Origin: Tridacna crocea
Taxonomy: Eukaryota; Mollusca; Bivalvia; Cardiida; Cardiidae
Direction of reading: 5' to 3'
Length of the DNA: 64,000 nt
Assembly (NCBI GenBank): GCA_943736015.1
Contig: OX031058.1
Coordinates: 25,011,001 to 25,075,000 of the forward strand
Below, piece after piece: positions 9,736 through 39,800 of the stretch; positions within the stretch are counted from its first letter, which is position 1, and each line of letters starts with the position of its first letter. Both the position numbers and the translations under genes were made by a program. A model generated the notes under the pieces. That model did no database searches. It saw only the letters and a list, made by a program, of their open reading frames with translations, and was not told the DNA's origin.

Positions 9736-9852
9736 TTACTTTGATTGTTTTTTATCTGTAGGCACCCATGTCAGTTTGTCTTTAGTTGGTAAAGCCGGAT
9801 GGTAAAATGTACAAGTACTTTTGTTCATACATCCAATACCATATCTACAGGG
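9736..9852 (-). CDS. ZC3H14: ZC3H14 terminal coding exon 18 (CCCH finger 5)
   Basis: Encodes PCRYGIGCMNKSTCTFYHPA (finger 5) and LPTKDKLTWVPTDKKQSK, then TAA. Length and the Trp near the end match the vertebrate C-terminus. The stop overlaps a donor-like AAA/GTAAGT, so a rare extension cannot be excluded. The last two full codons, one base of the codon before them, the stop and the next 38 bp form part of a 47-bp sequence repeated exactly at 2090-2136. Confidence 0.93.
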   Translation of the reverse strand, partial: PCRYGIGCMNKSTCTFYHPALPTKDKLTWVPTDKKQSK

Positions 9853-12800
9853 CTGTAAAACAAACAACAATATTGTAATTTGTAGATAGATGAAAAATAT
9901 CTAAATAGTCAGGATTATAATTGTGACTTCACTGATTACAATGTAGACCTGAGCCTAGACTCCACAAAACAAGCTGTCCGACTCTGTATCTGACCTGATA
10001 GAAATCTTGAAAATTCTTCTTGCTAGTTGCAAGACTGTAATACTAAGGTATTTCTATAAGGTTATAAAGATTTTATCCTAGAATTCTTCAAGTCAATACA
10101 TAACAGCAGCAATATTGACATGTAAATAGCCGGCAAGGGAGAAGTGTAGATTCAAGATGTTGGGCTGTTATCACCAACCATTATGAAAGTTTTTTTTTTT
10201 GAAACGCTGTACCACTTAAAATATTTAAGATTGGTCCAAACTGGAAGCATTTGAGTGAAGACAAATTAGCACAAACTAAGAAATCATTCCTTTAAAGGGT
10301 AGAACCATTGTGCAAGAAGGAGAACATGCTGGTTGCCAGCTTTTTTACTTTGTCCACAATGCTTTAAATGTGCTTTTCCTTAGGGCTCTTAAACCTTTGG
10401 AATGTGTGGCAAAGGGTTGATTCTAAATTTTGAGGCAAGTTCTCTCATTGGCTGAGACATGGTATGCAATCTGAGAGCAGTATCTTCTAATTCAGAGACA
10501 TTAACTCTTTACCATACAATCCTGACTTTTAACGATCCTGAGAAAGAAAGCCTTTGAAAACATTGTGGGAAATGGAGAAAATGCTGGTAACCGGCATTTT
10601 CTCCTTTTCCCGCAATGTTTTCTACCTTTTCCAAATTAAATTTTTTAATTTTTGATTCACAATTATTTTGTTGTCTGCAAAAGCTTTCAATTTGGACTAG
10701 TCCATGTTTTCTCGTTTGGTAAAGAGTTAATGAACTTTCATGGGAGAAAAGGATATTAAATTTTATCAGCATTCTACAGAGAGATATTAATCCTTTACCA
10801 AACAATCCCTGGTTTTTACGAGCCTGAGGAAGAAGCCTTTTGAAAACATCATGGAAAAAGGAGAAAATGCTGGGAACCAGCATTTCCTCCTTTTCCCACA
10901 ATGTTTTCTACCCTACCAAAAACAAACTTGAGTTTTTGAGTCGCATTGATTTTATTGTCTGGAAACGCCTTCACTTTGGATGAGTCTAAAATCTTGTCTT
11001 TCGGTAAAGAGTTAATCCTGTTAATTTTTTTTCTATAATAATTCCTTTTAAGTTGGAATTTACATTTTACATCTTCAGACCCACAACTGAGCTGGCAGCA
11101 CCTAAATGTAGCCGTCTGTGTTTTGGACTATTGCTAGCTGTGTAAGGCTGTTCTCAAAATTATCTCTGATAGTCCACAGAGGCCACTGTATATTTTTACC
11201 AGTATATTCTTTCAAAGCCACCGGCAGTTTTCCTTCTACAAGATTGTAGCAATAACATTAACTCTTTACCACATGACACATTTTTGGACTGGATTAAATT
11301 CAAAGCATCTACAGATAACACATTAAATCTTGGTAATATGATGACTTCTGACTTTGTTAGGGTGGGAAAAGGAGAAAATGCTGGTTAACAGCATTTTCTC
11401 CTTTTCTCACAATGTATTATATAGGCTGCTTTTTCAGGATCATTAAAGTTGGGATTGTGTGGTAAAGTATTAGGTTGTTAATGAGAACGAATCTTGAGGG
11501 AATGACACACATCAATCCATGTAAAAAATTCTTTCAGCTGGGAATCAACTCTACTAACTCTGTAACAAGCCCTTTACATTGCCAATTTTCATTACATACC
11601 TAACAGTGAACTCCTGGAATTTCCCAGTGTAATAAATTTTGATATCATCACTAGTGACAATATCAACTTTCACTTTCACTTCCTGCCATAATTTAGGAAC
11701 TACTTTTTCTTTTTGACTACATTTTCTTTTCGACTTTCAAACAAAAAAATTAAAAATAATTATGTTAATCAGGTATATAATAAAATAATTAACTGGTTAT
11801 TTTTTATATGAAAAATATCTCACTCGGATGCGTTGTAAGGCGTTAAAAAAAACTCGTGCTGTGCACTCGTTTTTTTAACACCCAACAACGCATCCTCGTG
11901 AGATATTTTTCGTATCAAAAATAACCAGCTGATTATCCTCTATATCTAATCTGCTAAGCTTTCTTTCTATTGCTTGGAGGAAAATAAAGTTTAAATTTTC
12001 CACTTGAAAAACAGCAAGAATCAGAAAAATCAGAAAGAATCGGCTAAACTGTTTACCAAACAATCCCAACTTTTAAAGACCCTAGGCCTTAGAAAGAAAC
12101 CTACAGAAAACATTGTAGGAAAAGGAGAAAATGCTGGTAACCAGCATTTTCTCCTTTTCCCACAATATTTTCTACCCTATCAAAGTCAGAAATCATCATA
12201 TTAACAAGACTGATTTGTTGTCTGTAGATGCTTTGGATTTGATCCACTCCAAAAATATGTTGTTTGGTAAAGAGTTAACAAACAATACAGAAATGCAAAC
12301 ATGTTTAATAACTTTACCTTGGGATGTATGAATGGACAGTTCATGTTTTTACAGTTGGGATAAAATCTACAGTTACTATTTTGAGTAGGTGGAGCCTGCA
12401 AAATGGGTCTACTGGGGATGAATGGCTGAACTGGAACCTGTACAACTGTAAATATAGATAGGAGGTAGTTTTAACTATTGTATTCAATGCTTTACACGTG
12501 GCACAAAATTGATTTTACTTCGCAGCAGACTACTTTTGAAAACGAACGCCTGGCTGGCTCAGTGGTGAGTGTGTCGGACTTTTGACGTGGTGGTTGTGAG
12601 TTCGATACCCGGTTGAGGCAAACTTTCTTTCCAGCCTATTTTCGCCTCTCACCTCTGCTGAAGCATGTGAGAAAAGAAGTTGGTGGCTTAGGAAATAAAG
12701 TTGTGTTAGTACTGGTAGGAAACATATGTGTGTCACCGACCACCATGATATGACCTCAGCTGTTAAAGTGGCATTAAACCCCAATACAGCCAACCAACCA

Positions 12801-15800
12801 ACCACTTTTGAAAACTTTGTGGCAAATGAAGAAATTGCCTATAATGAACAATTTCTTATTTTACCATAAAGTTTTTACCTGTACTCATAATACATGATAC
12901 AAGGCTACTAAAAATGATCACTTGACTTATCAGTTTGATTCATACTGAATACCTTTTTTTTTGTCCAGATGTTTTCCAAAAGATGATTTCCAACTGACCT
13001 TTTTCATAGATTTTGAATACCTGTATTTCCATTGAGACAAAATAAACATGCTCATAATACTTCATCCTGCAAATGTTTTCAATTTGGACCTGTCTACAAG
13101 GACTAAGTAATTCCAAGCACATCCTTGTTTATTATGAGCCATGCTCTAACAAAATGTGGTTTAATGCATCTTGGTTATGTATGATACCAAAGCAAGCCAT
13201 TATATACTTAACGATCCATAATACCCTCATTTTTCACAACTGACTTGGAAACTAGGTGGACTGGGCTTTGGCCTTACAGGAAATTGATCAATAGTTAAGT
13301 TTCATCATAGGTCAGCCTATGCTGATGGCGCAGACTAACCTCGTTTGACACTCTTTCACAGATGCATTAAGCCCCATTTTCACAGAGAATGGCTCATTTA
13401 TTTGGTACTACAAGTATTAAGTTGAGGCAATATTTATTACCCCAGTTTTGTAAAAAAAATTCTCTACAAGAGCGTGAGAAAAAAATTATTGTGTGGTAAA
13501 ATTGGTTGAGTCACTACATACTGAAACCAATCAGCTGCGGCAAAGTACAACAAAATAATCCTTGCAAAATATGACTGCTATGCTCAGATTTCCGACATGG
13601 AAACACAAGATAGTTTATGGTAGAAAGGTAAGTTGCTCTACAAGTGCAAGTACTCCTTCCACCATAGTGCTTTCAAAGAGGTCTTCTGCAAAAGAAAAAA
13701 GCTGTCTGCTGATGGTAATGTATTCAAAACTCAAACAATGAAAAATTACAATGTTACTTACTTTTATGAATGACTGTGGGATGGACAGTTGATCGTTTGC
13801 TTGCATGAGTGAATGGACAGTCCATCCTTGTACATTTGGCATCATATTTACAGTTAGGATGGATGTATACACATTTATCACCAAACTTGCAATACGGAAA
13901 TGTTCTGAAAGAAAAAAAAAAAAAAAAATAGAACCATTAGAGACTCCTGATTAGTTAATATCATTTTAATAGATTCTAACCCGCTTCCACAGAATGCCAA
14001 TATTTCATGACCTTGTGAAAGGAGACTATAAAAAAAATTGTGGGCAAAGGAGAAAATGCTGGTTACTTGCATTTTCTCCTTCCACAATGTTTTTCTGTCC
14101 TTCTTTTGAGAAATTTCATCATATCAGCCATATTTAATTTGTTGTATGTAACTGCTTTGAATTTAGACGAGTCTACGATGGTAAAGAGTTAATAAGTTTT
14201 CAAAAGTGTTTAGTCCAATCACAGTAACAACTAACTTATCCTTGTCTTTCTTGGCCTTCATAAATACAAGGTTGACCTGTCCCACCATCATGATAAGAAT
14301 GTCCTGATAAAACCTACACTGAGCCTTTATCATTATCACCACTTTTCCAAGAACGAAAATTTTCAGTAACAAACACCAGAAAGTCTTAGTGTGGTGGTGA
14401 AATTTCACAAATACAAAAAAAGAAAAATTTTGCTTTTCAACTATTTTTTGATACCTTTAACCCATTACCAAACGACAATATTTTAGACTGGTCCAAATTG
14501 AAAGCATTTGCAGACGACAAAATAAAAGTGACTGAAAATTTGAAATTTGTTTTGTGAAGGGCAGAAAACATTGTGGGAAAAGGAGAAAATGCTGGTTACC
14601 AGCATTTTCTCCTTTTCCCACAATGTTTTCTAAAGGCTTCTTTCTCAGGGGTGTCAAAAGTAGGGATTGTGTGGTAATGGGTTAATAAGCCCTTTACCAA
14701 GCAATCCCTGGTTTTTACGACCCTGCTGAAAACATTTTGGGAAAAGGAGAAAATTCTGGTAATCAGCATTTTCTCCTTTTCCATTAATGTTTCGTACTCT
14801 TCTGAAGTCAAGTTTCAATTTTTGAGCCATGTTTATTTTGTCCTCTGCAAATGCTTTCAGTTGGGAAAAGTCTAAAATAAAATTTTGTAATTTGGTAAAG
14901 AGTTAAAGCCAATTTTAGAATTGGTAGGGACTAGGTTAATTAAAAAATGACAAGTTACTCCTTTAATGCTTTCTTAAATTATGAAAACTAAGCCTTATCT
15001 GTTCTAATGGCTTTTGAAGACTACAAACTTGATATGAATGAAAAGACGGGAGTTGTTTTTAAAGTGGTAGAAAATATTGTGTGAAACAGGGAATGTTTGG
15101 GTTTCTAGCAATTTTTCCTTGCACTACAATATTCTTAAACCCTATCCTCCTTTGTGTCATCAAAACTCAGAATTGTTTGGTAAGGGCGAGGGCTAGCAGA
15201 GAGCAGTACTTACTTGCATGGTACTGAAGGATGAATATACTGACAAGCACTTCCATTTGCGCAAGCTGGCCAAAATTTGCAGCGTTCCAATATAGATGCT
15301 GATGGTGTAGGACTAGGCTGTTCTTCAGTTTCTTCTTCTTCATCTTTAACCAAAAGAACATTTTTCAAATATTTTGCCATTTGATAATTTTCTAATAGAA
15401 GTTTGCATATTAGTCCATTATGATTAAAAATTCTGACAAATAAAACAAAAAGCCTGAATTCCTCCGACATCTTGTAATTTTCTTTTAAATCTTCCCCCAA
15501 AAGGAAAAATCTTAGCCTTCATTTTCTCCTTTTCCAAAGTTTTTTTTCTTCTTCCTGGAGGCCTGTAAAACACTTGACCTCTTGGTGAATGTTTTCATCT
15601 GGTATATGCATTATTGCATGAGCTAGTATTTAAAAATTTTCAAGTAAATACAAAAACTTGCTAAAATACAAAAAATATATTCCTTACAATTTTCTTATAT
15701 GTTCTTTTACATAATTTTTGTTCGATAAAAATTAAAAGAAAAAAAAAAACCTTAGCAAAGCTTTTCATGCTAAAAAAATTCTGGGGGCATTTGTGAATTT

Positions 15801-18800: not shown

Positions 18801-21800
18801 TGAGTTCAGTGCATGAAAAACTGTAAGAGAATTGCTCTGGACAAATGGACGACAGAGCCGTGGCAATTCCAGTATACCCCCCCCACACACACACACACAC
18901 TACGTGGTAGGGGGTATAATGGTATAATGATTTAGACAAAGAACACTTTTGGAAATATTGTGGGAAAAGGTGACAGTGTTGGTAACTAGCATTTGCTCCT
19001 ACATCCGCAAAGTTTTCCACCCTTTTTAATGCAAATTCTACAACAGTTTTAAGCAACAGTAAATCTGTTGCATGCAAATGCTTTGGATCTAGACAAATGA
19101 AAAAAAAAAAAAAATTCACTGGTAAAAAAGTTAATTAAAAGCATTTTTTACTTCTAAAAAGGACAGAAAATATTTTCAAAAAGAAGCAAATTTATTGTAA
19201 CATGCATTTGTTACTTTCTCATAAGCTTTGAAAGTATCCATTGAATTCATTACCAAACAACAATATTTTAGACTTGTCCAAATCGAAGGCATTTGCAGAC
19301 AACAAAATTAAAGTGACTGAAAATTTGGAATTTGTTTTGTGAATGGTAGAAAACCTTGTGAGGAAAGGAGTAAATGCTGGTTACCAGCATTTTCTCCTTT
19401 TCCCACAATGTTTTTTAAAGGGTTCTTTCTCAGGGGTGACAAAAGTAGGGATTGTGTGGTAATGGGTTAAGAGGGATGTAAAATATTATACAGTGATGTT
19501 CAAATAGAAAGATTCTTTTATTTCTTTCAACTGGACTAACTCCATTTCCATACTTCTAAGTTGTTACGCACTGTCATCTCAATTCCTTGATTTCTAGCCC
19601 TGCACAATGCTACTGAGCAATCCATATTACACAAAAAAATTGAACTCTTGATAAAAACTAGTTCAATTACCTGTTAATGATCCGTTTATTTTCTACATAC
19701 TGGTAGGAGACTGGGCTCTCAATGTTCAGATCAAGCTCTGTATCTTTAGCTTCTTCCAGGATTTTCTGTATTTCAGGATCAGGTCCATTATCAGATAGAG
19801 ATTCTGTTTAAGAAAGCAGTTTCTTTTCTATCATTATATATAGGTGCTTGTAACCCTCCACCACAAAATCCTAAGTTTTGACAGCCCTGAAGGAGAAGCC
19901 TTTTGAAAACATTTTGGGAAAAGGAGAAAATGTTGGATTCAAGCATTTTCTCCTTTTCTCACATTGTTTTTTTCCATTTCAACAACATTTTTTTTTTTTG
20001 CTTCATGTAAATTGTCCCTACTTTCAATTTGGACAAGTTCAAAATTTCCTTGTGTTGTGAAGGGTAACTCTCTAGCACAAAATGCTTACTTTTAACAATT
20101 CTAAGGAAAGGTCATTTTGAAAATATGATGGAAAAAGGAAAAGATACCTGAAAGTAACATTTTATCCTTTTCCCACAATGTTTTCCATCTCTCTAAAGGG
20201 GAATTTCTATTGCTGAGTCACAAGTATTTTGTTTGCCTCCATATGCTTTCAAGCTGGCAAGTCTAAAATTTTGGTGTTTATTAACTAACCCTTTACCAAA
20301 CAATCCCTGGTTTTCACAACCCTGAGGTAGAAGCCTTTTGAAAACATTGTGGGAAAAGGAGAAAATGCTGGTCACCAGCATTTTCTCCTTTTCCCACAAT
20401 GTTTGTTATCCTGCTGGAAACAAATTTCAATCTTTGAATTACATTTATTTTGTGGTCTGCAAGTGCTTTCAATTTGGACCTGTCTGAAATTTAGTTGTTT
20501 GGTACAGAATTAAAGCGACAACTCTACCAGAGGCACGATTATAGACTTGTCCTCATTGACAGCATCAGCAAAATCACAAACTTAAGGAGGCTCCAATGTA
20601 TGGATTTGTCTTTGAAAGAGTTGAAAAAGATAGTGGGAAAAGGAGAAAATACACTGGTCATCATAAAACAAGTATGTATTCTGCAGCATGGACAACTTTG
20701 AAAACATCTTTGAACTTTCTTGGCCTGTGGTGTCCTTGTTCGTGGGGTAAAGCGTCAGGGTCATAACCTAAAGGTCCTGAGTTTGATACCCTGGAGCAGG
20801 TGTCAACTTTGGGATTTTTCATAGGCCCACACATTCAGCGTGAGTACTGGTGTAGTTCCTAGGAAGATTTTTAAACTATTCACCAACCATTCTTAAGAAC
20901 GTTCTTTGTCTTATTTGCCAGAATTTTCTACATTCGGTTTAGCGAATCAGAAGTTGTGTTACTTCCAAATGTAGAAAACCTTGGAGAACAAGACTAAGAA
21001 TATTCTCAAGAATGGATGGTGAATACCGGCCCTGAATTACCAATATAAATGGGTTTCATACATGGATAGATGAGACAATATTGTGGCAAGAGAAGACATG
21101 CTTGATGCAGGCATTCAATTACCTCATTACCAGATGACAAAATTTTAGACTTGTCCAAATTGAAAACATTTGCAGACGACAAAATAAAAGAGACTGAAAA
21201 TTTGAAATTTGTTTTGTGAGGAGCTGATGGCCCTAAATCAAATTGAAGTACATAGTAAAATTTGAAGTGCTTTAACCTTAACAGAGATGAAAAAAAAAAA
21301 AAGGCTACTGGCAATTTAGACCATGATAACACAGCACAAACCATGCAGTCTGAATTTAGATCTGTATTGTCTGACATTTTGTCGAAGATTTTTACAACAA
21401 CAACAACAACAACAACAACAAAAAAACTTCAAAAATGCAAATTTGATAGAAAATATATAGGTTAGAAATTACCTGTGTATTCATTGCTGTCTTCGTTGGA
21501 GTCTGTTTGCACTTTGGATGCCTTATGTACTACTCTGGTGTCAGGTAAAGGGGGTCCATATTCTGCGATTATACATGAATCTTTTCTGATCATAGCAATT
21601 TCATAATATAACCCTGTCCTAATGATCCAATGGTTTTCTGATCCTATAAAACAGCGCTTTTGAAAACATAGTATTAAAAGGAGAATTGCAGGTAACCAGT
21701 ATATTTTCCTATCATTTTTTGTAAGCTTTCAAAAACAAAACCTAATCGTTTGCTTACATTTACATTTCCTTTTAGAAGGACTTGGTTGTCTGCCGAAGTT

Positions 21801-24800
21801 TTAACATATACCAGTATAAATTTTGATGCCTGTAAAAGTATTCAAAGATATTAAAATCCATATGAATAAGATCAGAATGAAAAAAATTAACATGCCCTTT
21901 TTCCTTAAATTTTCAAAGGGCATCATTTTCAAATTTCAGGCATACCGGTGCTCTTATGTACATGTATGTCAAAAAAAACAGACTTGTCCAAGGTGAAAGG
22001 ATTTGCAGACACGTAACAGTTCAAATATGTGATGGAATTGTTTGTTAATAAGGTAGAAAACATTGTGGGAAAAGGAGAAAATGCAATTTACCAGCATTTT
22101 CTCCTTTTTCCTGCAATCTTTTCAAAAGCTCTCTTCATCAGAGACCTTTTACTCATTACCAAACAAAATTTTAGGTTTGTCCAAATCGAAAGCACTTGCA
22201 GACGACAAAATAAAAAAGACTGAAAACTTGAAATTGGTTTTTTGAAGGGTAGAAGACATTGTGGGAAAAGAAGAAAATGCTGGTTATTAGCATTTTCTCC
22301 TTTTCCCACAATGTTTTTTAAAGACTTCTCTTTCTCAGGGTCGTCAAATGTAGGGATTATGTGGTAATGGGTTAAATCCAGGATTGTGTGGTAAAATGTT
22401 AAAGATTAAAATCCTTCCATGAGTAAAGTTTATCTGTGGCGCTACTAACATCATGGTACACGTATCTATTTGATTCCAACAAGTCTGAACAGCTCAATCA
22501 TGAAGAGTGGTTGATTTAAGTGTTACATCTATAAACTTGGATTAGTTAATAGGTTTAATTTACACAGTCCTTCAACTCTTTTATTTTCTTGATCTGTATC
22601 TGTCAATTATTTTGTATTTTCCATCTCAATTACATTTACAATCTTCAAATCTCCTTGATGGACTTAACGCTTTACCAAGCAATACCTGGTTTTTACAACC
22701 TTGAGATAGAAACCTTTTGAAAACATAGTGGGAAAAGGATAAAATGTTGGTAGCCATTTTCTCCTTTTCCCACAATGTTCTCTATCCTACTGGAAACAAA
22801 TTTCAATTTTTCAGTTATGTTTATTTTGTTGTCTGCCAGTTCTTTCAACTTGGACAAGTCAAAAATGTTGTCATTTGGTTAAAGGGTTAAAGCTTCTCAC
22901 CTACAAAATTTAATGCTTTTTCCAGTTATGAATTAGTAGACCTTTAAACATTGGAACCAACTTCCATTTTTTTCTGTGGACAGCATTGATCAAGATCAGA
23001 CCGCACAGAACATGCAATTTTATCTTTAATCTACACTGTCTGCTATTTTGTTTCATTTTCTGGTAAAACAACCATCAAGTGATCGTATTTTGGAAGCTTT
23101 TCTTCACTGCAAAGGTCTGTTTCATTCCTTGAATGCTCTAAGGGTGGAGGCCGCTTTCCCAACAAAGTTACCTTTGTTGCCAGTGAAGATGTAGACCAGA
23201 ATACATGAAACACACAGTCTGAACAAAGGCAACCTTTAAATTTCAATTTTTTGGGGGTTTAATTTCTAGACCGGAATACCCTTTTGGGATAATCTACAGG
23301 AAAAACTGTACCTGTCTGTGAGGCAGCTATTTGCAAGATGAAGTAACTGTTACCAGCTTCCACTCTGAATTTTTAAACATTGTGAGTCTAATCTCACTTG
23401 ATACTTTTCACTGCAAACGTTTTATGTCTAACTGGGCAACAAAGGCCTTAACCTATTCCTACACAACATTATGTTAGATTTGCCTGAACTGGAAGCATTT
23501 TCAGATGGCAAGTTTAACAATGACTCAAACACTGAATTTCACATGGAGAGGTAGAAAACTTTTGTTAAAGGAGGAAATGGTGATTAACAACATTTTTTCC
23601 TTTTCCAACCTCGTTTTAACCTTTACCTAATGACAAAATTTTCGACTGGTCCACATTGAAAGCATTTGCAGAAGACAAAATAGATGTAACTCAAAAACTG
23701 AACTTTGTTTCCCGCAGGGTAGAAAACATTGTGGGAACAGGGGAAAATGCTGGTTACCAGCATTTTCCCCTTTTCCCACAATGTTTTCTATAGGCTTCTT
23801 TCTCAGGGTCATCAAACGTAGTGATTGTGTGGTAATGGGTTAAAACACCTTCTTTCGTGGGGATTATAACCCTTCACCAAACAATAGCATGATTTTACAA
23901 CTCTGAATAGGAAAGCATTGCATACATTTTGGAGAAAATGCTGGAAGCCTGAAATTGCTCCTTTTTCCAAAATGTTTCCAATTCTTTCCTTGATTCTCTC
24001 TATACCGAATGATAAAATTCTTGATTGCCCAAATTAAATTAATTGGCAACAAAAAATATGTGATTCAAAACTTGAAAATTGCTTTTGGATGGTTAGAGAG
24101 CATTGTCTGAAAAGTAGAAAATGCAAGTTACTAGGATTTCCTCTTTTCCTGCACAGTTTCACAAGATTTTTTTCTCTGGGTTATAAAAACTTGGGCCTAT
24201 TTGGTAAAGGGTCTTGACATAATTTACCAACACATATTGTATGCAAAAGCTTTCAAGGTTCATTTGTAAAATTTTGTCCTCAGGTAAAAAGTTAACATTT
24301 CAAGTATAGCAGGTTACTTTTTGTTCTTGCAGCAGATGTCATTTGGAAACGTCTTGGCAGACTTAGAATGTGCCTCTCTGTATTTATATTCTTTCTCATG
24401 TATTTAACTCATACTCATTTTGATAAGAAAATATCTCCAAGAATTCATTCAAAATAATCTGCTTGAAATATGTTTCAAAATTTAATTAAAAAAAGCAACA
24501 ATCAACAAGGTTATGTGTATCTTTATGCTCATAATGAACACATGACATGATAAATTTATTCAAAACAATGACAATAAATAAGGACAAAAAATCTTTTTTT
24601 TTGTAATGAGAACAAGATTGTGGAAAGGAAATAAATGGCTTCATAATCCTTTTTCTGAACTCTTCAGTAAAACCATCCCATGTTTTCCCCATAGGAAGAC
24701 TTCTGAAAAAATTCTTGGAAGAGAAGAAAAGCCGACAACTGCCATTTTCTCCAATCTCCAAAAATGTTTTCAATCCATGAAAACATAACTTTAATTTTTT

Positions 24801-27800
24801 AGTCAGGTTTGATACATCATAAGTAAATGCTTTCAATTCAAAGAGTAAAGAATTGGTTATCTGGAAGTGAGTTAATGCAAGTGCCTTCAAATGCCTCTGT
24901 ATTCAACAATTTCAGAAAACATGGCAATCCATAAAGATATTGCTATTTACTACAAGCTATTTATCCATTGTCACAAAGTCCTTCTTGATTTTCAAAACAT
25001 GTTTTGGATAGAGAGAAGAAATCAGGGACATAGTGCTGATGAATACATAATTTAAAAGAACAGAACCGATAAAAGTGGTTGGATTTTCTGGTTGAAAATA
25101 TAGAACTTACAATTAACACTATCTATAAGTGCTTAATGAAAAAAAAAAAGTAGTTCCTAAAATACGGCAGGAAGTGAAAGTGAAAGTTGATATCGTCACT
25201 AGTGATGATTATCAAAATTTATTACACTGGGAAATTCCAGGATTTCACGGCTAGGTATATAATAAATTTACAAAAGATATCAACCCATGTCAGCATGTGC
25301 AGTGTGCTCTAGCAGACATGGGCCAAAACTTTTTGCTTTTGGTACATTTTCTGCAAGGGAACAAACCAGTGTATCTCATGATCTTGTTGGTTGCTAGACA
25401 AAATAGATTTTATGAATCTATACTAATGTGATAATTAGTTTATGGGAATGAGCTTAACCCATTACCACACGAGAAAAATTTAGACTGGTCCAAATTGAAA
25501 GCATTTGCAGACGACAAAATAAATGTGACTGAAAAATTGAAATTTGTTCTGGGAAGGGTAGAAAACACTGTGGGAAAAGGAGAAAATGCTGGTTACCAGC
25601 ATTTTCTCCTTTTCCCACAGGGTTTTCAAAAGCCTTTTTTCTCAGGGGCGTCAAAAGTAGGGATTGTGTGGTAATGGGTTAATCCCCTTCCGTTAGAGCA
25701 AAGTGCATGATGATACTTTTTTCGTTTTTTTCACAGTAAGTTTCATGATAACAAGGGTTGAAACTGCATGTCTGTCTCAGCTTTCACTTTCTGCAACTAC
25801 AACATGGTATGTCCTCGGAATATGTGTATACTTTATATACTAAAATTCCCACTGGTAAACCCCTAATTCCCCAAATAAACATGTCACTGTAACAGGTGCT
25901 TATTTTTGTTCAAAAACATCATCATGTCCACATGTTCAGGTTTGACTCTGATGTCCAGCATTTGGCATTGGTCAGTCAGATTATACACATCATCACTGGA
26001 CAAACTGGATGCAGGAATGGTCAGTATTCTCCTAGCAACTTTACTTATCCTTGGATACAGGGAGTGTTTTTCCTTCCACCATCCCAGAGGATTTTTATTA
26101 CTAGCAGGCTCTGCCATGTACACATCTAGCTCTATCTTTGCCACTTCTTCTGGAGATTTTTGTTCCTCAGGTGCTCGAATCACATCATCAAGCCAATCAT
26201 TTTCAACAGTGATGGACATATTGGTCATTTCCACACTATTGGCAGCTGCGTTAGAAGTAGACACTTCTACAGATACTTCTCTGGGTGTTTTATGTACTGT
26301 TTCATTTTTTTTATCATGATTATCTTCAACAGTTGCATCAGAAATTTGTTTATCACTTTCAGATTCATCAGATTCTGGTTCATTGCCTGCCTCATTCCCT
26401 TCAATTTCTCCAATTTCATCATTTTGTTCTGTCATGATAACACAACGTTTGTCCTGATCATCTATCCTCTCTGACATAGAGACTGTTTGCTTCTGTTGTT
26501 GCTTTTTACCCTTTTTAAACCTAGCTGTCCTCCCTTCTTGTTCTCTGTTTTTCCCAAACTCTTTTTCACAAAGCAATCTTACCTCCTCAAACAGGAGAGC
26601 TCTAGAAAAGTCTCTATCATCCTGGGATAAAAATCCAATCTGTTTGGTTTGAGGATGAAGCAGGCAAGCCAATAAATAAATCTCCCTGTTTGCTTTTAAA
26701 AACTTCTGAATTTGACTTTTCATCAACTGTTTTACAGAATCAATCACCGAGGTATCACTGACATCCTTTTCCAGCATTTTTTCCAGTTTGATCAAAGTTG
26801 GGATAACTTTCTGTATCGTAGGCAGTCCTTCTGCACTGGTCAATATATCTGTTGCTGTTTTAAATGGGGATAAGATTTTTACAAGAGATTCCAACACAGA
26901 TTGTTCATTAAAGTTATACAGATGTTTCCTGAGATCAACTCCTTGGTTAGTGAGATCAGAGTCCATGATGGCTGCATGCAAGGCTGGAGTTTGTTCTATC
27001 AATCTTATAATCATATCTAATGTTTTACTCCAGTCATTTGCACCGTCATCTAGTTTCAACTTTCCACCTTGAGCCTGGGGAGACAATAACACCTCTTTCT
27101 TTTTGTCAAAAACGTCAAGAACCTGCTCATTGTCTTGAACTTCTTGTATTAACTCACGACCTCGCTGTATATATACACTGACTTCTTCTTTCTCTAGACA
27201 TTTTTTCACTACTTCTTGAACACAGTGTCCAAAACATGAGACAGTCTTCCAGTCAAGCATTTCAAAGACAGATTTTTCTGTGTTAATATCTTTTACTACA
27301 GCTGAAAGTTTAGGTAGATTCCATTTCAGTCTGGTTTCCTCCAGATAGTTAGCCAAGCTATCTACCACGTTACTTATATCCATGGGCGAGGTCCTAATTA
27401 CAGCCCTTTTTAGAACCCAATCACAAGTTATGTAATGTACACTTGTGCTATCAAATAACTCTAAGGCTATGTTTGTCCAGGAATTATGGGTAATGACGCA
27501 GGACTCAGTTTGTGACAAGTCCTGTTTAAGATCATCTTTAACAACATTGTACATCATGCCTAGCTCTGCTATCAATTTCTTCCTCTTGGGAAAATGGTAT
27601 TTGGGTTGCAACGTCTTGGTGAACAATTTGAAAGCTTCGTTTTCAACAAATTCGAACGGTAGAAGATTGTCAATGAACAAGTTAAAAAGACATGAATCTA
27701 TTTCACCCAATTTATCCTTGCTTAGTTTTCCTTCAAGTTCTGTGCTTTCAGTTTGACACCGTTGCTCATATACAGTATTTATTCCCAAACCACCAAAATT

Positions 27801-30800
27801 TGACTCTCTCATGTTTACAACTGTTTGGGAGGCTCTGTCTGTCACTTCAATTTCCATCTCCTCCACAGAATACTCTGACTCCTCCCCTGACTCCACCTCA
27901 GACTCTTCCGCTGACTGCAGCTCCTCCTCCTCATTCTCTCTATCATCACTTTCATCCACTTCATCAGAGCCCTCAGAATTATCTGAGTAGTACTCTGAGT
28001 CAGTTGTCTCTCCTGCAATGAGAAAGTTTTGCAATTTAGTGAGCACTTATCTTATTTTATCAGTGAGCTATTTATAAATGTTGCTTGCAACTTAGATTAT
28101 ACTGCAGAGTACAAAAATTTGATATTTGACTTGTAGAAAAACTTGAACTTCATATGATTTTTTGGCAGGTGAGTCTACATCAATATTGACCATGTAGATT
28201 AAAGGCAAGACTGCACATTCTGAACAGCTTGATCTAGATCTACAATACTGATAAAACATCTGAGCCATACTCAATGAAAAGTGGGTTTAATGCATCTACA
28301 AAAAGTATTGGCCCTGTTGACCTGACTTGAAACTGTTTGCTATTAATAAATTTTCAGGAAGACCAGTGTACCTCCAGATGCAGTCGTTGTTATACATAAT
28401 GAATTTAATGGATCCACAATAATGTGAAGACTTTCTTGCTATAATGAATAATAAGGATGCAATAAGCCCCCTTTTGTCAGAGTATGGCTTGTTTGAATAA
28501 GTTTTCAGCATATTTACAAACAAGATCTTGTGATATTCCTGTGCACCTCTTGGCAGAATTTGAGATATTTGCACAAAGCAACCTTTCATACTTTTAATTA
28601 CCTATTTGTACTATTGTATCAAGAAGGCATTTGCTAGGTTGATTGTGTGTTATGATCTATTATTTCAAAGCTCACAGATAAATGCAACACTTTCTCATCA
28701 CAGTCATCTCACAATAAACTTTCACCCATCATCTGTTGTATTCAACCAACCCAGTAACCCTTTCACTACACATCCAAAGAATGTGATGTTCTGGACAGTA
28801 TATATCAAGGTCAAAATACACAGGATTTGCAGTCTTATCTAGGATCTACACGTTTTTTTCTTTTTAGGTCAGGTCCACAGTTTGATAAGTCAAGTCTACG
28901 GAATAAACATTTGTTCTGTTCCAGTCAACAGTACTTTCAGCCATCACAAAAGGTTGTGATGGCTGAAATAAATTATATTTGGTGCTTAAATAAAGACTTA
29001 TGATATATATCTATAACTTTTCATTCACTAATGGATGCACTAATATAAAAGTGGATGTCGTAACCACTTTATTTATCACTTCAAAAACACAAGTTTAACC
29101 ACACGATCCCTACTTTTGATGCCCCTGAGAAAGAGGCCTTTTGAAAGCACTGTGGGAAAAGGGGAAAATGCTGGTAACCAGCATTTTCTCTTTTTCCCAC
29201 AGTATTTTCTACACTTTCCAGAACAAATTTCAATTTTTCAGTCACCTTCATTTCGTTGTCTGCATATGCTTTCAATTTGAACCAGTCTAAAATTTTGTCA
29301 TGAGGTAAAGAGTTAAAAATCTTGTAGGTGATTATTTTAAACTCCTTAACAAAGTTGGTTACCAGCATTTTTCTATTCCCCACAATGTGTCTGGAGGCTT
29401 TCTTTCTCAAGGTTATTCAAAATCAAGATTTTGTGGTAAAGAGTTAAAAATATTGGTGGTAAAAATGGCATTGGATATTTAGAAGTTCTTACAGTCAGAA
29501 TGTCGTAAACAACTTACAAAGTACAGAAAAGGGGTCAAAAATGTGTTTTGTACATATGTTGTAACCCCCATCTACCCATGTCTTAAAAAGGCATCTTAAA
29601 TTGCCTAGGACAAGCTACAAATATGCCTTGTTGAACTCTTTGTCAAACAAACAACATTTAGACTTGTCAAAATGAAAAGTTGCACAGATGATTGAGCCTG
29701 TCTGTGTTTGGACAAAACATTGTAGTAAAAATATAAAAAGCTGGTAAAGAGCATTTTCTCCTTTTTCCATCATGTTTTAAACAGTCCTCTTGATAAGAGT
29801 CATTAAAACTTAGGATTGTGTGGTACAGGGAAAGTAAGAAAACTAGCTTCTCAGTGCTTCATGAGAAACACAGCACAATTTGTTCATGTGACAGTCAGTA
29901 ACAAGGGAAAAATTGTTATATAATTCTGGCTCTCTGATACCAAAAAGAAATATCTATTTTGAAGAGCAGAAGAGAGTAGCTCAACAGATGAAAATGACAA
30001 GTCTTTCAGCCAAACATGAAAGAACAATTTTCATGATAAAAAACACACACACATCAGTGGTCCACAGCAAAAAGTGTTGAATATGGTAATTGTTTATAAC
30101 GAACTTTTGTGGGTTGAATGAAATATTAGGGTTCATCTATTATATTACAGACCAAGACCATACTGCAAAGAACATGTAGTCACATCTTAATCTACACTTT
30201 CCAAGTAGGCTGAATTATTTTCTAATCAAGTAAGTTTTGATGTTTCAACATCGGGATCCTTCCTTGTAACTGCCACATGTTCACTTTACCTGCTGAGCAG
30301 GCAAAAAGTTCAGTCATTATAAAAACAATTTCAAAAATCAAGGTTCTGCATAAAAAAAAATGTACTCACGCTCTTCATCATCTTCCTCATCCTCTTCCAC
30401 CTCCTCAACCTCTTCTTCCTTTGTTTTACGTTGAACTTTTCTAGTTTCATCTGTCTGTGTGATAGCTTTCAGAGCTGAAACAAAATGTACTGTTCAAGAA
30501 GAAAAGTTTTCCAAAAGTTTTCACACACAGCCAACTGTCACATAAATGCTAATATTTTAATAACCTGTTGACAACTTACCCCTTTACCGCATAACCCTCG
30601 TTCTAATGACAGATGGCTTTTGGAAACATTGTAGGAAAAAGAGAAAATGCTGATAAACAGCATTTTCTCCTTTTTCCTCATTGTTTGCTACCCTTCCAAA
30701 CACATATTTCAATTTCCGAGTCACACCAATTTTATCATCTGCAAAGTGCTTTCAATTAGGACAAGTCTACATTTTTTCTAAATTTGGTAAAGAGTTTTGT

Positions 30801-33800
30801 TACTAACTCCAACAGCAGATGCCTTTGAAAGTATCTTTGTGCATTATATATGACAAAATAAATCAAGGCTTGAGACATGAACCCATGTGAGTAAAAAACT
30901 TAGAGAACAACAAAACAGATATAATGCCTCCCACAGTTATTTTCTCCTTTACCACCGATTTTTCAGTGACAATCTGCAGTAAGATATGACCATGCTCATA
31001 TGTCATGTAGTACCAACACCTGAGCTTAACTCATTACCAAACAACAATATTTGTCCAAATCGAAAGCATTTGCAGATGACAGAATAAAAGTGACTGAACA
31101 TTTAAAATTTGTTTTGAGAAGGGTAGAAAACACTGTGGGAAAAGGAGAAAATGCTGGTTACCAGCATTTTCTCCTTTCCCACAATGTTTTCTAAAGGCTT
31201 TTTTCTCAGGGTCGTCAGAAGTAGGGATAGTGTGGTAATGGGTTAATAAAGTATTTTGAACTGAACTGACTGAACCGAATATTGAATAAAGTTTAAAACT
31301 TTGCATATCAAAAAGGCTCAGTGTCATTTCTAAATGTACATCAATATCATTTCAGTTCTCTGACAGCAAAATATCAACAGATTTCAGTTCATAGACTTTT
31401 CGCAGCAATTCATATCTGTATCATGAAAACAATCATTGACATGTAATTAATAAATCGCCTTTCAATATTATCAGATATGAAGTTTTATGGTGCAAATAAG
31501 ATAGAAAATGTTCGCTAACAACGCTTAGTGTCACATGCAAAAATCATGACAAATTTGCCATGTGAGTAACTAAGGGCATTTGCATCTAGTAAAATCATAG
31601 TTTCAAGTCCATCTCAAGGACTGATGTTCTATATCCAGAATGTTGGAACTCAATATGTAAAATATCTTTCAGACACATTTTTGAATTATATCTGAATAAA
31701 TGCTTTCCACCTGCAAGGCATCTGTTCTTGTACAAGCCAGTGATATGATATGGTACTCTTGGCTCACACAAAAACCAGTGTTACCATTTAGGATAGAACC
31801 TAGAACCTCCAGACTGTAAATCCAGCACATAACTTTTAAGCCATGCAGGCATCCTTTTGTTTAAGGAGGTAATGATAATTTGTAATTTTACCACACTGCA
31901 AAATTTCAGGCTAGATTAACTCCAAAGTATATGGTAGTGACAAAGAAGAAAACATTGAGGGAAAAGAAGAAGCTGGTTACCAGTATTTTCTCCTATTACC
32001 CCAGTGTTTTCAAATGGCTTTTTGCGTGGGGTTGTTAACACAGAAGATAGTTTGGTAAAGGGATAATCACAACCATTTTAATACCTGATCCAGCCAACCT
32101 GGATTGCCCTGCCAGTGCTGCTTTAGATTTTTTTCGATCCGAGGACTTTGAGGCTTGGATGTTTTTGACAGTATATTTTAACTGTGTGAAATCCTCGACA
32201 GCCTTCCTGGGTTTTTTGATGTCATTCTCAATAGTATATGTCATGTCCTCAACTCCTTTTCTCTTACTTCTTGACAGTAATTGAAGTCCAGCTGCAGTTT
32301 TTAAACGCTTTCTCAGGTCTACAGGTCTTTGGTCTGACTTCATCCCAGATGCAGAATCTATTTAGAATAGCAGAGAACTTCCATGAAATCCTTACTGCAA
32401 AAGCATGACTTTTTACATTTACATTTCAATATCATTCAGCTTTGAAAATTGTTGTTTTGACAAGTAGGCACTATTGCCAGTGCTTGCTTTTCCCGCATGT
32501 GATTTCTATTCAGTTTTTAAAAGTTTAGTTCCTTTCTAAATGTATGTCTCTCATGCTAAGTGTACAAAAACCGGGACTAGAAATAGCTTCTATAGAATGA
32601 GTTTACAAGCTGAAGGAAGGGTTTGTGGACATTTAATTCTAATAAAGAGTAAATAATCGGACTGAACAGTTGCTGCATCCAGTTAGTTAAGGGTTGACTG
32701 AACCAGACTCCTTACCAATAAATCAGTCAAGATCACATTTTCATCTTGCTGCCAATAGATTATCTATAAGGGATAATTAATAAAATTGAACAAATTGTCT
32801 TGCATGATCTCTATGAAAAGAATGTAAGTATAATCTTGATTAACTTGGGCAATGAGATTTATCCTTTACCACACTAACAACCCTGAAGAAAAAAGCTCTT
32901 CAAAAGTTTGTAGAAAAAAAGGAGAAAATGATGGTAATCAGCATTTTCTCCTTGTCCCAGAATGTTTTCTACCTCATCAGGGATTTTCAGCACTAATTTT
33001 GAATATGTAATCTGCAGATGCTCTCAATTTTGTGGAGTCTAAAATTTTGTAGTTTTAGAGTTCATGGCTGTACAAAAGAAAAAAATACAGGCATTTTCTT
33101 CTCAATTGGTAAGCTCATGAAAATTTTTCCTTTTGGTAGCTATTTCTGCAAAACCTGCATACTAAGGGGTTAGATGTATAAAACTAAATTAGAGCTGACA
33201 TTAAAGCAAAATAGAAAGGTTTGCAGACCTGCAACACATATACAAGCAATTGTTTGCTCCATATACCGTTAATACAAAAAGACATTTCCTTTCATCTATA
33301 TATCTTTTTTATATCAGCTTAAAAAGTAATTGGCTCTGTCTATGGATAACCTCCAGGGAAAATGATAAACATACCTGAAAGAGGGACTTCGGTTCTCTTC
33401 ACAGTTGTTACAGACCTCTCAGCATCATTAACAGCTTTCATAAGTAATGAACGATTTGCCTGCATTGCTTTCGGAATACTGGATCTGAAAGCCAAGAAGG
33501 TTTTTGATTGATTGCATTAGACTTTAACTTCTCATTTAACCCTTTCCCAAACAATCCTTGGTTTTTACGGGTCTGAAATAGTAGCCTTTTGAAAAAATTG
33601 TAGGAAAAGGAGAAAATGCTGGTAACCAGCATTAATTTTTTCTCCTTTTCCCACAATGTTGTCTACCCTATCATAGACAGAAATCATCTTTTCAGCAAGA
33701 GTTGAATTGTCGTCTGCAAATGCTTTCAATTTAGTCTAGTCCAAAAGTTTGTCGTTTGGGAAATGGTTAATAGCTTATTCTTACATCAGTACTAACACAA

Positions 33801-36800
33801 CTTTCTTTCCAAGTCTCTGATTACTTATCTCACATGTATCATAGATGAGAGGATAAAATTGCCTACAGAAAGTTTTTCTCAAACTCACAACCACCTGGTC
33901 ATAGTCAGGCCAAGCTAAAGTCAAGAAGGAAACTGTTTATAGCAAAATCTGTTGTGAATGTGTTTAGTTTCATAGCTTTTATTTATTGCATTAGCAGTGA
34001 CTTGACCCTGAATATACTATAGATAGAAGTTTACATGAACCCACTAGATACAGAAGACATTTTGGCTGTTGTTGCACCTAATAAAAGCTTTTTAAATAGT
34101 GTCAACTTCCATCACATTGCACAGAAAAATGTAGCCTGATCAATTAATTTGAATATTTTGTGAGATTTCCCAGACATAGCAGCCTCAGAAATGCAACAGT
34201 TAGGTCTTTTTCAATGACTGGAAAGGAAGATTTCACAGGTGTAAGTAACTCCACTTATTCGCCAAAATCATGTGCTTAACAGCTCCTCAAAAGGGGTAAA
34301 TCTTTTCTCAAAGAAAAGTATTTTATCATTATCATAGATTTGCAGCGACTACCCCAGAATATATTTTTGAAAGGACAGCTTTTGTAGGACACAATTCCTA
34401 TACATGTATAACATACAAGGTGTACAACAAATAGAGGTTTCATAGCTTTGCATTCAATTAAAATAAATAATGTGAAAAACTTACTTTCTTGTTGGTCCTC
34501 GTATAACACTTGCAACATTTCCAACAGCAGGATTCAATGGATCATACTCTTCTTCTTCTTCCTCTTCTTCGTACTTTCTCTTCACAGCTGCTACAAATGA
34601 TGAAGGCTTCTTTCTAGTACCCTTTTTGGTCTCCTATAATCATAATTATCTTTGATGTAGAAAAACAGAACTCATACTTTACAAGTTATCTTATAACTTT
34701 AGATATTCCCAGAAATGAAGGATTCAAAAAGCACTGTGGGAAAAGATTTGAAGTAACAGGCTTGATCAAAGCCTATGGCAAGATAAAATCCTGCGGAACA
34801 TTTTGAAATTCTAACTAATAAGTTGATTGTAGGTATCCAAATATAATGCAACACAAGTGCTGTGTCTGTGTTTGATCCAGATGTTGACATTTTCTAAGAC
34901 TGAGTCTAAGCTGCCAACCTTTTAACTCTTTACCACATGACAAAATTTTGGGCTGGTCCAAATTGACAACATTTGCAGATTATAATTTCAGTGTGTCTTA
35001 AATGGTGTATTTTTCTTTGATAGGATAGAAAACATTGAAGGAAAAGGAGAAAATGCTGGTTACCAGCATTTTCTCCTTTTCCCGCAATGTTTTCAAAAGG
35101 CTTTTTTCCTAGGGTCGTTAAAAGTAGTCATTGTGTGGTAAAGTGTAAACATCATTATGAGCAATTTCTTATTCTGCAAAAATGCTTTCAGAAGTCGTCT
35201 ATTGCAAGATTAAAAGGCCATCTGGATGGGTGATCAGGTTGTCTTTATGCACTATCATTACCTTTTCTGAGATTGGGCCTGATGTTGACTTATCCTGAGG
35301 TTGTGTCTTAGCTGCCGACTTTTTCACTTCTGATGACTTCACTGTTTTAGAAACTTTTCCTGATTGAGGCTTTTTGGCTTTCACAGATTCTACAGTCTCT
35401 ACTGCTGTGTTTTCCTCATTAAATTCATCTACAAAGGAATGGAAAGATTCTTTGATATCTTGCATACTTTTCTCTTACCGAAATGCAAAATTTTACAATT
35501 GCCCATTTTGTAAGCCTTTATAGATAAGAAATCAAATACTCAAGTGTGTTGCTAAAGAGAGGAATATAAAATACTATTTGCCACTATTTTGTCAGTATTT
35601 TCATTTTTATATTCTTTGAGTAAATACCACTCAGTTTGTCATAATGTCAAAGAATGATCTAAAATGTGCATCAAGTATATCTGTAACACTTAACCCCAAT
35701 ATCCTCAGTTTAATTGTCCTGTGGGAAACTGCTTTGGAAAACATAGAGGAAAAGGGATAAAAATGCTGGTTATCCAGCATACATGTATTTCCTTTTCTAA
35801 ATATTTTTCTATCCATCAGAGAACTTTAGCTCCTCCGTGACAGTAATGAATTTGTTATCTGCAAATGTTTCCATTTCAGAAGAGTTTAAAATTTGTTGTG
35901 TAGGTAAAGATTAAGAGTGCACAGTTTAACATTGTACAACACAGATAAATGCAAATATTTTGTAATCTCTAAAGAAGTCAGAGTTTGAAATCCTGAGCAA
36001 CAACACAGCAAATTGTCTGATTATGGTAAAGCAAATAACTGTTATGGATACACATGAAATAGTTCTTAGTGAAAATGTACTGCTTTTAGGATTCAAATAC
36101 AACCCCCCCATTAGGAAATTTAGAAATACAAATAAAAACATAAAAATATAAAATAACCCTTTCCCAAACGACAAATATTAGACTCTTCCAAACTCAAAGA
36201 GTTTGCAGACGACAATTTCAAATTCAATAAAAATGGCAGAAAGTTCTCCAAATGTGTAGAAAACACTGTGGGAAAAGGAGAAATTGCTCGATACGAGCAA
36301 TTTCTCCTTTTCCCACAGTGTTTTCAAAAGACTTAACTGCAGACATGTGAAAACAAGGGCTTGTCTGGGAAAGGGTTAAAAAAAGCGCACCTGTATTTTC
36401 ACTTATGTTTATTTCAGTTGCTGGTTCATCTTCCCCTGACTTCACTGTAGATGTTATTTTCTCTGACACTTTACTCTCTAAGTCTGTATTTTCTATTTTC
36501 TGTTTCTTCTGTTCTTCCTTCGAGTCACTGGCTGCAGCTTTATCTGTATCTGGCTTATTTGTTTTCTCTGATGTGCTTGTTCTGTGTTTCTTTTTCTCAG
36601 TTTTATGTTTTTCTTTGTGTTTTGACTTACTCTGAACTTGATCTATAAAGTATATGTATATTGTATTAGAATCAAAGTGGGCAAGATAATATTAGATTTT
36701 GACTTCCTTTAATCATTCAAAATCATGATTTTAGAAAACTATGCAAATCGAAGTAAAACTTTTTAACAGTATTTGACCATTCAAACAAACAAATGAATCA

Positions 36801-39800
36801 TGATTATATAACTAAGAAATATTGGTTTACCTGTATTGATGGACTGGAGTTTCTTCAACAAACCATGCAGCCTGTTCAATAAAGAAATGCAAAACATTGA
36901 CACAACTTCAATTATTTAAGCAAGTAAATTGTCCATGTAGGCAAGTTGAAACTGGTCTACGATATCTGTCCTTTTTTCTTTAAATCCAAATGCAATCTAG
37001 TATTGTGGCCCTTTACCAATCCATCCACAGTAAACAGCATTTTCTCACAATGTTTTTACCCTTCAAGTAACAAGTAAAGGCCAAATGTAAACAAAATGGG
37101 TGTTCTAATGCATTTGAATCTATATCACACCTTTTACAAGTATGGAAATTATAGTGAAGATGACACCCTATCATGGTCTAAGCATTACTCACTAACAAAG
37201 ACATTAATTTAAAAACTAGGTTAAAATCTGCCAGGTAGCTGTGTCTTTCATTTACTTTTCAATGATCTTTTTTTTCTATCAGCAACTAACATATAGCACG
37301 ACCACATAACAGAGACTGTTATCTCCGCTATAGTTTCCATACTTTTAAATGGTTTGACATCATTAATATTTACTGGGTCTTTAAGCAACATTTAATTTAT
37401 GGTCTGTTGTCAGAGTCTAAACTTATGCTACCTGGAGAAGACAACTATGGATAAAGAATAGCCCTGCATGCAACTAAGACTACTCTTTCCTAAGCAATAT
37501 CCTCTTGACTAGTTTTTGCCTGAAATATTTCAAATACTCTTTGTCAAATGTACTGTGCTGTTTCCTTTTCATTTAAACTGTAATGAATGATCAATCTGTT
37601 GATTTGATGTTTAACTTTGTTTTCAACATCATTCACTTGCATCACAACAGCAGTTTCACCCATACATGCCTTCCTTAAGTTGTTTTTTAATGGCAGTTGA
37701 CACAGTTTTTCCAAGCAATGGCTACTTTCCCAAATAAATTTCATCAGTCCCCGGTAAAAGTCAAGAGATGAGCTGGAATTACATGCCCTGTACTGTAACA
37801 GACTTAGGTATCTGCCTCTGTCAAAGACACAAGTGTCACACAATATTAGTCCTCAATTGATTTTATTCTGGCAAATTTACAGGTCTGAAGATTGGGGTAT
37901 TACCAGAGTCTAAAGGCCATGGGCTTACACCACAGACCAAGGATATGTTACTTGACCAATATGACAATACTTTTTATCGAAATTTCTACTGAGTAATGAC
38001 TAGGATATGGTCGTGTTGGCCTCATTTTGTTTATTACTGGCCAAGTTTTTTCTTATTTTGGCCACATTTGCTGACATTGGCCCACTCCGTCATTTGTTAT
38101 TAAACCAATATCTTTTGACATATAAATGCAAAAATCAAAAATTGTCAAATTGTCAATTAGAAACTTCAAGTTGAAAAACAACAATCCATATACAAGACAC
38201 CAGATTAAGATCTGTTCCTTATCAGTAGACATATCTTCAATACTCATGTCATATTTTAATAAGTCACCAAACAAAAGAATAGCATAAAGTATGATCAGTT
38301 CTTGCTTTGCTTTTGAATTTCTACAAACTATGAGTAAGTACTACGGCTGTACGAAATTTTCTCATCTAAATTCCAAGGCAAATTTCCTGACTTGGAATCT
38401 GATTGGCTAAGTCAGACTGTATCAGCCAATTAGAATGCTGGTATAGAGTTATATGAAATACAGCAAGAGAATATGCCACCTTGATACATACCAAGTTGTG
38501 AATTTTTCTGTGTTTGTGCTGAGAAAGAGACTGAGATCATCTGTCATTTGTTTTTGTGAACGCTTATTGGCCACCATGACCATAATGTAATCTGGTAGTT
38601 CATCATCTAAAACATACAAAAATCTCTACACAAATTTTGTAATTTTGCATCCAATTCATTATTTTCAATCTAATATATTTAATGAAGAGAATTGTTTTGT
38701 TTTCATGGAGGTATGGAAAAAAACAAAAACAAAACTAATCACACTATGAAACCGCAAAGTGGTTTCATACAAAAGTGTGATTAGGGTTTTTTTTTCATAG
38801 TTCATACCTCCATGAAAAACAAAAAAAATTCTCTTCATTCCTTATAATTCAATATCAGTCATACACAACAAATATGCACTTCAAAATTTCTAACTGCTTT
38901 TTTTCATTGAAAATATAACATTACATATTTATATAATGTCCATTTTATTCATATTTCATAGCGTGGTAAAACTGCTGGTTCATGACGTAACAGTGATGCA
39001 AATTCGTGACATCATTAGAGTATTGAACATCTGCAGGTTCAGTAGCTTTATTATTAGAAGTTCATTGATATGCTAGAAGTTGAAAAAAAGATTGTTAGAA
39101 CCCAGCGAAGTGACAATGAGTTTTCATCTCTCTCACTGAATTTATTGTTGGATGTCTTTATCAATATTTAGAGAAAATAAATTCAGCTAGCAAGTTGAAC
39201 TTCAGATTCGATAAAGATCAGAAAGAAGACCATTATGATATCTCATATACACGTTTGTTTACATTACTTTGACTGTAAAAGTAGTCCTGGCACTGCTGAA
39301 TTTTTTTTCATGGAGCTATGAAAAACTTTTTTCAGCCAATCAGAACTCACTAATGTTCATAAAACAACTAATATTGAATTGACAAAAAATAACAAAAAAA
39401 AAGCAAAGCACTTCTTAAAACCATTTATCTGAAAGCATTTACATCTATCTGAACTTGGCCAAAATGATGCAATTTGTGTCCAAAAAGGTGACATTTAGGG
39501 AAAAAATGATAAATAGTGGAAAGCAGCCTTATCATACAATGGATTGAAAAGCCTATTGCCTCAGGGTCATTAAAATATAGGTAGGTTTGATAAAGGGTTA
39601 TAATATGATTAATGTAGAAGGTATTCTATGAAATGGACATTATGTGTTTAAATATCATGTGAAGTCACCCCATGTAAACATTGGGAAATATGATCATTGT
39701 ACACCTGTTTCCATAATGATATTTATTAACCCTTTACCACACAATGACGATTTAAATGACGCTGGAAAGAAGCCTTTTGAAAACATTGTGGAAAATAGAG

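Follow-up and report, generated by a model that had tools for sequence, protein, structure and literature searches.

The stretch of contig OX031058.1 analysed here, 64,000 nucleotides long and called the window below, carries on its minus strand a gene of the ZC3H14/Nab2 type and, within intron 10 of this gene and in the same orientation, a long open frame resembling hAT transposases, which we consider as a candidate alternative terminal exon of the gene. Positions are those of the window, and all exons, motifs and signals described lie on the minus strand. Exons 1–18 of ZC3H14 (41728 to 9740, the span of our reconstruction, which stops short of the 3′ end past 9740) form a single frame of 760 residues free of stops, with the start MEIGTEISQKIR. 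Exon 3 (38492..38606) matches the PWI domain (PF01480, E 5.7e-4, slightly under the curated cut-off), and exons 15–18 (9740..15343) encode Nab2-type CCCH fingers, with PF14608 (zf-CCCH_2) matching in all four frames scanned (E 7.5e-9 to 8.7e-5, two of the four above the curated cut-off and two slightly under). With a PWI-like N-terminus and CCCH fingers of the Nab2 type encoded in a single frame, the host gene is, judged by its domains, of the ZC3H14/Nab2 type, as the first-pass annotation had it; a close likeness to human ZC3H14 beyond these domain matches is presumed by us. ZC3H14 homologues are reported to have an N-terminal PWI-like fold in common and to bind polyadenosine via the CCCH fingers (PMC11788927).

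Exon 10 (30370..30474) closes with an acidic run and ends one base into a codon, in phase 1, at the donor AGC/GTGAGT. The constitutive continuation, exon 11 (21473..21562), is entered at 21562 in the same phase, after which the host frame is stop-free through exon 18; by eye, a second in-phase acceptor upstream of exon 11 is possible. Introns 2, 4, 5, 8, 9, 10 and 11 are all in phase 1, six of them among introns 1–10, and therefore joins from several exons to the hAT exon keep the frame, which would also survive the omission of exon 9 or exon 10. Having a weak donor and phase-1 introns on either side, exon 10 may be skippable, or may be used mainly with the hAT exon. Exon 6 (35262-35473) has two possible in-phase acceptors 45 nt apart, the one at 35428 being the start given by the first-pass annotation and the upstream AG having been seen by eye.

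The hAT-like frame runs from stop to stop over 25884-28046 (720 codons). The chance of 709 open codons is ~10^-17.9 at the stop-triplet frequency of 0.056 found on the same strand outside the frame, and the longest frame in 50 first-order Markov 64-kb windows, counting both strands, was 196 codons. When entered at the acceptor 28012, it forms an exon of 2,129 nt (25884..28012), made up of 2 nt of a codon shared with the upstream exon, 708 sense codons and the stop. Joined to the 1,291 nt of ZC3H14 exons 1–10, it gives 3,420 nt or exactly 1,140 codons, with the terminal stop only and none internal. The open frame, this arithmetic and the common phase of the hAT exon and exon 11 had all been read before and hold on recalculation; sense orientation, an acceptor and frame continuity with an upstream host exon are thus all found at the hAT exon.

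The C-terminal part of the exon protein contains the hAT dimerisation domain (PF05699, 25902..26132), matched at E 6.1e-15, above the cut-off, and the best solved relative is the Hermes transposase (E 1.6e-7). Of the hAT core and dimerisation domain claimed earlier, the latter is clearly there, while the RNase-H-like core (PF14372) stays below its cut-off at E 0.0033, or 0.0013 when the core is searched alone. Judged from this homology, the protein descends from the hAT transposase superfamily. Structure prediction for 631 residues of it from the single sequence gave a mean pLDDT of 36, and an NCBIfam search returned 0 families. Relatives of the protein were found neither in viral_contigs (1 pattern-matching stretch) and genome_contigs (41 stretches) nor in phages. 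A degenerate pattern of the hAT dimerisation motif picked out 0 stretches in viral_contigs and 6 loci in genome_contigs, none of which looked hAT-like by eye in the pattern's frame around the match. Within the window there is no other convincing hAT fragment, the only match apart from the exon being of 19 residues (E 0.98).

Is this protein still a transposase? In Hermes, the residues D180, D248, R318, W319 and E572 are held to be essential (PMC6027215). The position of E572, which is the Glu of IPASSAASER when counted in full-length Hermes 8edg_A (the alignment row starts from residue 512), is occupied in the hAT exon by Asp, the first Asp of SSDDVY (codons from 26000), according to the alignment. 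The alignment covered only the E572 part, and because none of the six genome_contigs loci read as hAT there was no family alignment, so that the other four assignments remain motif readings. By such reading, the place of the first catalytic Asp, D180, falls in THNSWT (27474..27491), located through what we take to be the DxW motif, and is Asn here; the second, D248, is kept in VVKDINT (27279..27299); and in NDWSKT (27021..27038) Asp stands for R318 and W319 is kept. The key residues of an active hAT transposase are therefore not all present (E572 by alignment, D180 and R318 by motif reading). No BED zinc finger was matched in the hAT frame, nor upstream of it, where 20 of the 21 frames reaching 30 codons were scanned and the few domain matches were all at E 0.011 or worse and under their cut-offs. 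Transposase activity has, on this reading of the sequence, probably been lost.

The loss of essential residues (one by alignment, two on the motif readings) suggests that the element has indeed changed since its last active ancestor, and the frame has nevertheless no stop or frameshift across 708 codons. About 4.4% of single substitutions in it (transitions weighted twofold) create a stop, and under neutrality a divergence of 5% per site would bring an expected 4.7 stops (probability of none 0.009) and one of 10% would bring 9.3; with indels at an assumed 0.1 per substitution, the probability of an intact frame at 5% divergence is 2e-7. An intact 708-codon frame combined with probably lost catalysis suggests that it was kept by selection. 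Neither the catalytic residues nor the BED finger had been mentioned in the first-pass annotation; the loss of the former and the failure to find the latter favour domestication, which we regard as well supported.

How is this frame translated? Its first in-frame ATG (27855..27857) is codon 52 of the exon, and the 51 codons ahead of it (27858..28010) form an acidic leader which takes up the acidic end of exon 10, a continuity noticed in the first reading and borne out here. We scored it with codon statistics from 506 host codons, exon 10 left out of training. The leader reaches 0.92 bit per codon in this frame, a value attained by none of 777 noncoding stop-free 51-codon stretches (maximum 0.18; the stretches overlap, at 7-nt steps, and include the strand opposite host exons). 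In 20-codon windows moved at 30-nt steps, with stop codons given -3, the score jumps from -0.32 (ending 28011) to +0.77 (starting 28010), and one far-upstream window (28190-28131) is also at +0.02. The hAT body as a whole scores near 0 (0.002 bit per codon), above the noncoding 99th percentile of -0.33 for that length; the body is surely coding despite the faded score, and the measure picks up the leader rather than the whole exon. If translated, the leader, which lacks a start of its own, must be joined to a coding exon that lies upstream and ends in phase 1, and such an exon is therefore probably required; the nearest known one in the fitting phase is ZC3H14 exon 10.

The acceptor region (28013..28041) contains CACTAAAT, branch-point-like by eye, and CTTTCTCATTGCAG. 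The acceptor 28012 is the top-scoring of the 35 AGs in 28046-27812, and with a score of 3.6 it falls within the host jackknife range (-5.4 to 11.8) and surpasses seven of the 17 host acceptors, which makes it usable, though ordinary. Past the hAT stop there is a TATAAA after 47 nt and the first AATAAA lies at 25218..25223, 661 nt downstream, AATAAA having a background density of 0.89 per kb on this strand.

We propose that an old hAT transposon inserted in sense orientation into ZC3H14 intron 10 and has since been domesticated, serving as an alternative 3′ terminal exon, and we put the probability of this reading at a little over one half (roughly 0.56). A fraction of the ZC3H14 transcripts would then be spliced from 30370 to 28012 and have their 3′ ends downstream of 25884, we infer from the sequence, as we do for all the steps from splicing onward. 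In the fusion product, 1,139 residues long, the PWI-like domain and the charged linker would be followed by a hAT body, probably dead and able to form dimers, and the poly(A)-binding fingers would be missing. ZC3H14 transcripts would in this way end alternatively in the fingers or in the hAT body. Since both proteins would share the PWI-like domain and linker, N-terminal partners could be bound by the fusion in the absence of RNA, and it could oligomerise. Most likely it would oligomerise without binding RNA and serve as a partner of ZC3H14, or compete with it for the N-terminal partners of that protein, and making it would presumably lower full-length ZC3H14. More tentatively, we consider it possible that an animal ZC3H14 makes a second, selected protein that has a catalytically dead hAT transposase in place of the poly(A)-binding fingers; a gene for a nuclear poly(A)-binding protein would then also be the source of a transposase-based, oligomerising antagonist of that protein, an independent hAT counterpart of the CSB-PGBD3 fusion.

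The fusion is plausible and unproven, and several observations weigh against it. The acceptor had been called good, and this stands only in part: best locally, it is rank 66 of 565 among the AGs of intron 10 (by a first, smaller model), and its score is equalled or exceeded by 12.4% of the strand's AGs. The exon 10 donor is the lowest-scoring of 18 host donors, exon 10 and the hAT exon would match in phase by chance in one case out of three, and a poly(A) signal above background level was not found after the hAT stop. The leader score is driven by acidic codons, the leader contains a 24-nt short repeat, and all five printed windows starting at or below 27830 drop to -0.69 to +0.13. The neutral-decay argument is conditional on the hAT frame having diverged much, and the first Met of the exon, having a good start context (G at -3, G at +4), would allow a solitary hAT protein. 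What survives of the fusion as first put forward is the hAT origin, the host identity, the frame, a usable acceptor, the acidic continuity and the coding-like leader; against it remain the ordinary acceptor, the background poly(A) signal and a possible private first exon.

The last of these leads to the alternative that fares best, namely that the frame belongs to a nested, independently transcribed domesticated hAT gene (ZBED-like, without a BED finger), lying on the same strand with its own promoter. ZC3H14 would then merely provide the host intron, and the protein would be made either by splicing a short first exon of its own onto 28012 or by translation from the Met at 27857. We find this reading rather unlikely. 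In 28013-30369 there are four candidates for such a first exon (with an ATG, open, in phase 1 and with a donor at least as good as that of exon 10), three of which share one donor, the best starting at 30317 with a strong donor of 9.7; however, nine control stretches contain 0 to 6 such candidates, so that four is background. Likewise, the start context at 27857 is good but a start there leaves the 51-codon coding-like leader untranslated, and the upstream frames scanned offer neither a BED finger nor another convincing domain. The fading of the coding score in the hAT body and the rank of the acceptor in intron 10 weaken the fusion and strengthen the nested gene. The two could also coexist, as in the case of solitary PGBD3, which is apparently transcribed alone from a cryptic promoter as well (PMC2268245).

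A dead hAT copy, intact by chance and unused by the host, appears improbable. In its favour, both the fusion and selection are predictions from DNA sequence, but E572 has changed by alignment, and D180 and R318 by motif reading, and yet the 708 codons have kept their frame, still intact in a copy in which the BED finger was not found and the ends are not convincing. A live autonomous hAT transposon, for which the long intact frame with its dimerisation domain could speak, is extremely improbable given the E572 to D change, the BED finger not found and the lack of convincing terminal inverted repeats with 8-bp target duplications, of which a search of 28013-30500 and 21700-25900 (12-nt ends, up to 2 mismatches) gave 3 hits vs 0 to 2 in 20 shuffles. 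Two of these three hits fall inside a flanking inverted repeat pair, and the third (30346/24262), with an exact duplication, AT-rich ends and 2 mismatches of 12, is within chance.

The repeat pair in question consists of palindromic TTAA-edged copies at 25454..25682 and, in the opposite orientation, at 29098-29316, which bracket the hAT exon. Its inverted 219-nt arms were considered as transposon ends and rejected, being copies of a dispersed palindromic repeat with TTAA-type inverted ends (22070-33660), whose 56-nt core is present in 14 copies at ≥60% identity in 22-34 kb. For one 229-nt copy the folding energy is -91.6 kcal/mol (z -10.9). The bracketing copies, 89% complementary over 219 nt, could pair in the pre-mRNA and may affect exon use. 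Elsewhere in the window, two arrays that look alike by eye repeat a 145-bp unit in tandem, one at 3475-5632 (14.9 copies) and one at 50961-52125 (8.1 copies).

The mechanism proposed for the ZC3H14-hAT exon would match, by analogy, that of primate CSB-PGBD3, the nearest case for which such an architecture is proven, and so would be of a kind already known. There, as PMC2268245 describes, a piggyBac element in CSB intron 5 supplies a 3′ splice site in frame as well as a poly(A) site and is co-expressed with the full-length protein. In both cases a host N-terminus would be followed by a transposase, with the full-length host protein remaining (PMC2268245 and PMC3459987). The differences from these accounts are that the element is a hAT here instead of a piggyBac; that 7 nt separate the acceptor from the transposase Met there, while a 51-codon coding-like leader intervenes here; that the poly(A) site is found ~130 nt past the stop there and no clear one is found here; and that expression and conservation were shown there, while the hAT exon is known here only as sequence. 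ZBED and other domesticated hATs similarly keep a hAT body with its dimerisation domain in a host protein (PMC10027918), but in our case the BED finger was not found and the hAT part is so located that it could join a PWI-like, charged-linker part. Tetrapod host-transposase fusions such as KRABINER (Cosby et al. 2021, as cited in PMC12062965) also combine a transposase-derived part with a host gene; those fuse DNA-binding domains to expression regulators, whereas a DNA-binding finger was not found here. Human ZC3H14 splice variants exist, according to the title of a reference in PMC11788927. Among the papers listed for ZC3H14 no transposase-ended isoform was seen, and those listed for ZC3H14 together with transposase were unrelated, judging from title and opening of the abstract; a search for domesticated hAT transposases in bivalves found nothing.

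If true, the ZC3H14-hAT exon would place a hAT that has lost catalysis in a gene for RNA processing, probably in a non-vertebrate, and the route from intronic transposon to host-transposase fusion would then not be tied to the exon-trap design of piggyBac. ZC3H14 would also gain an isoform in which the N-terminal domain, which binds partners, is uncoupled from poly(A) binding.

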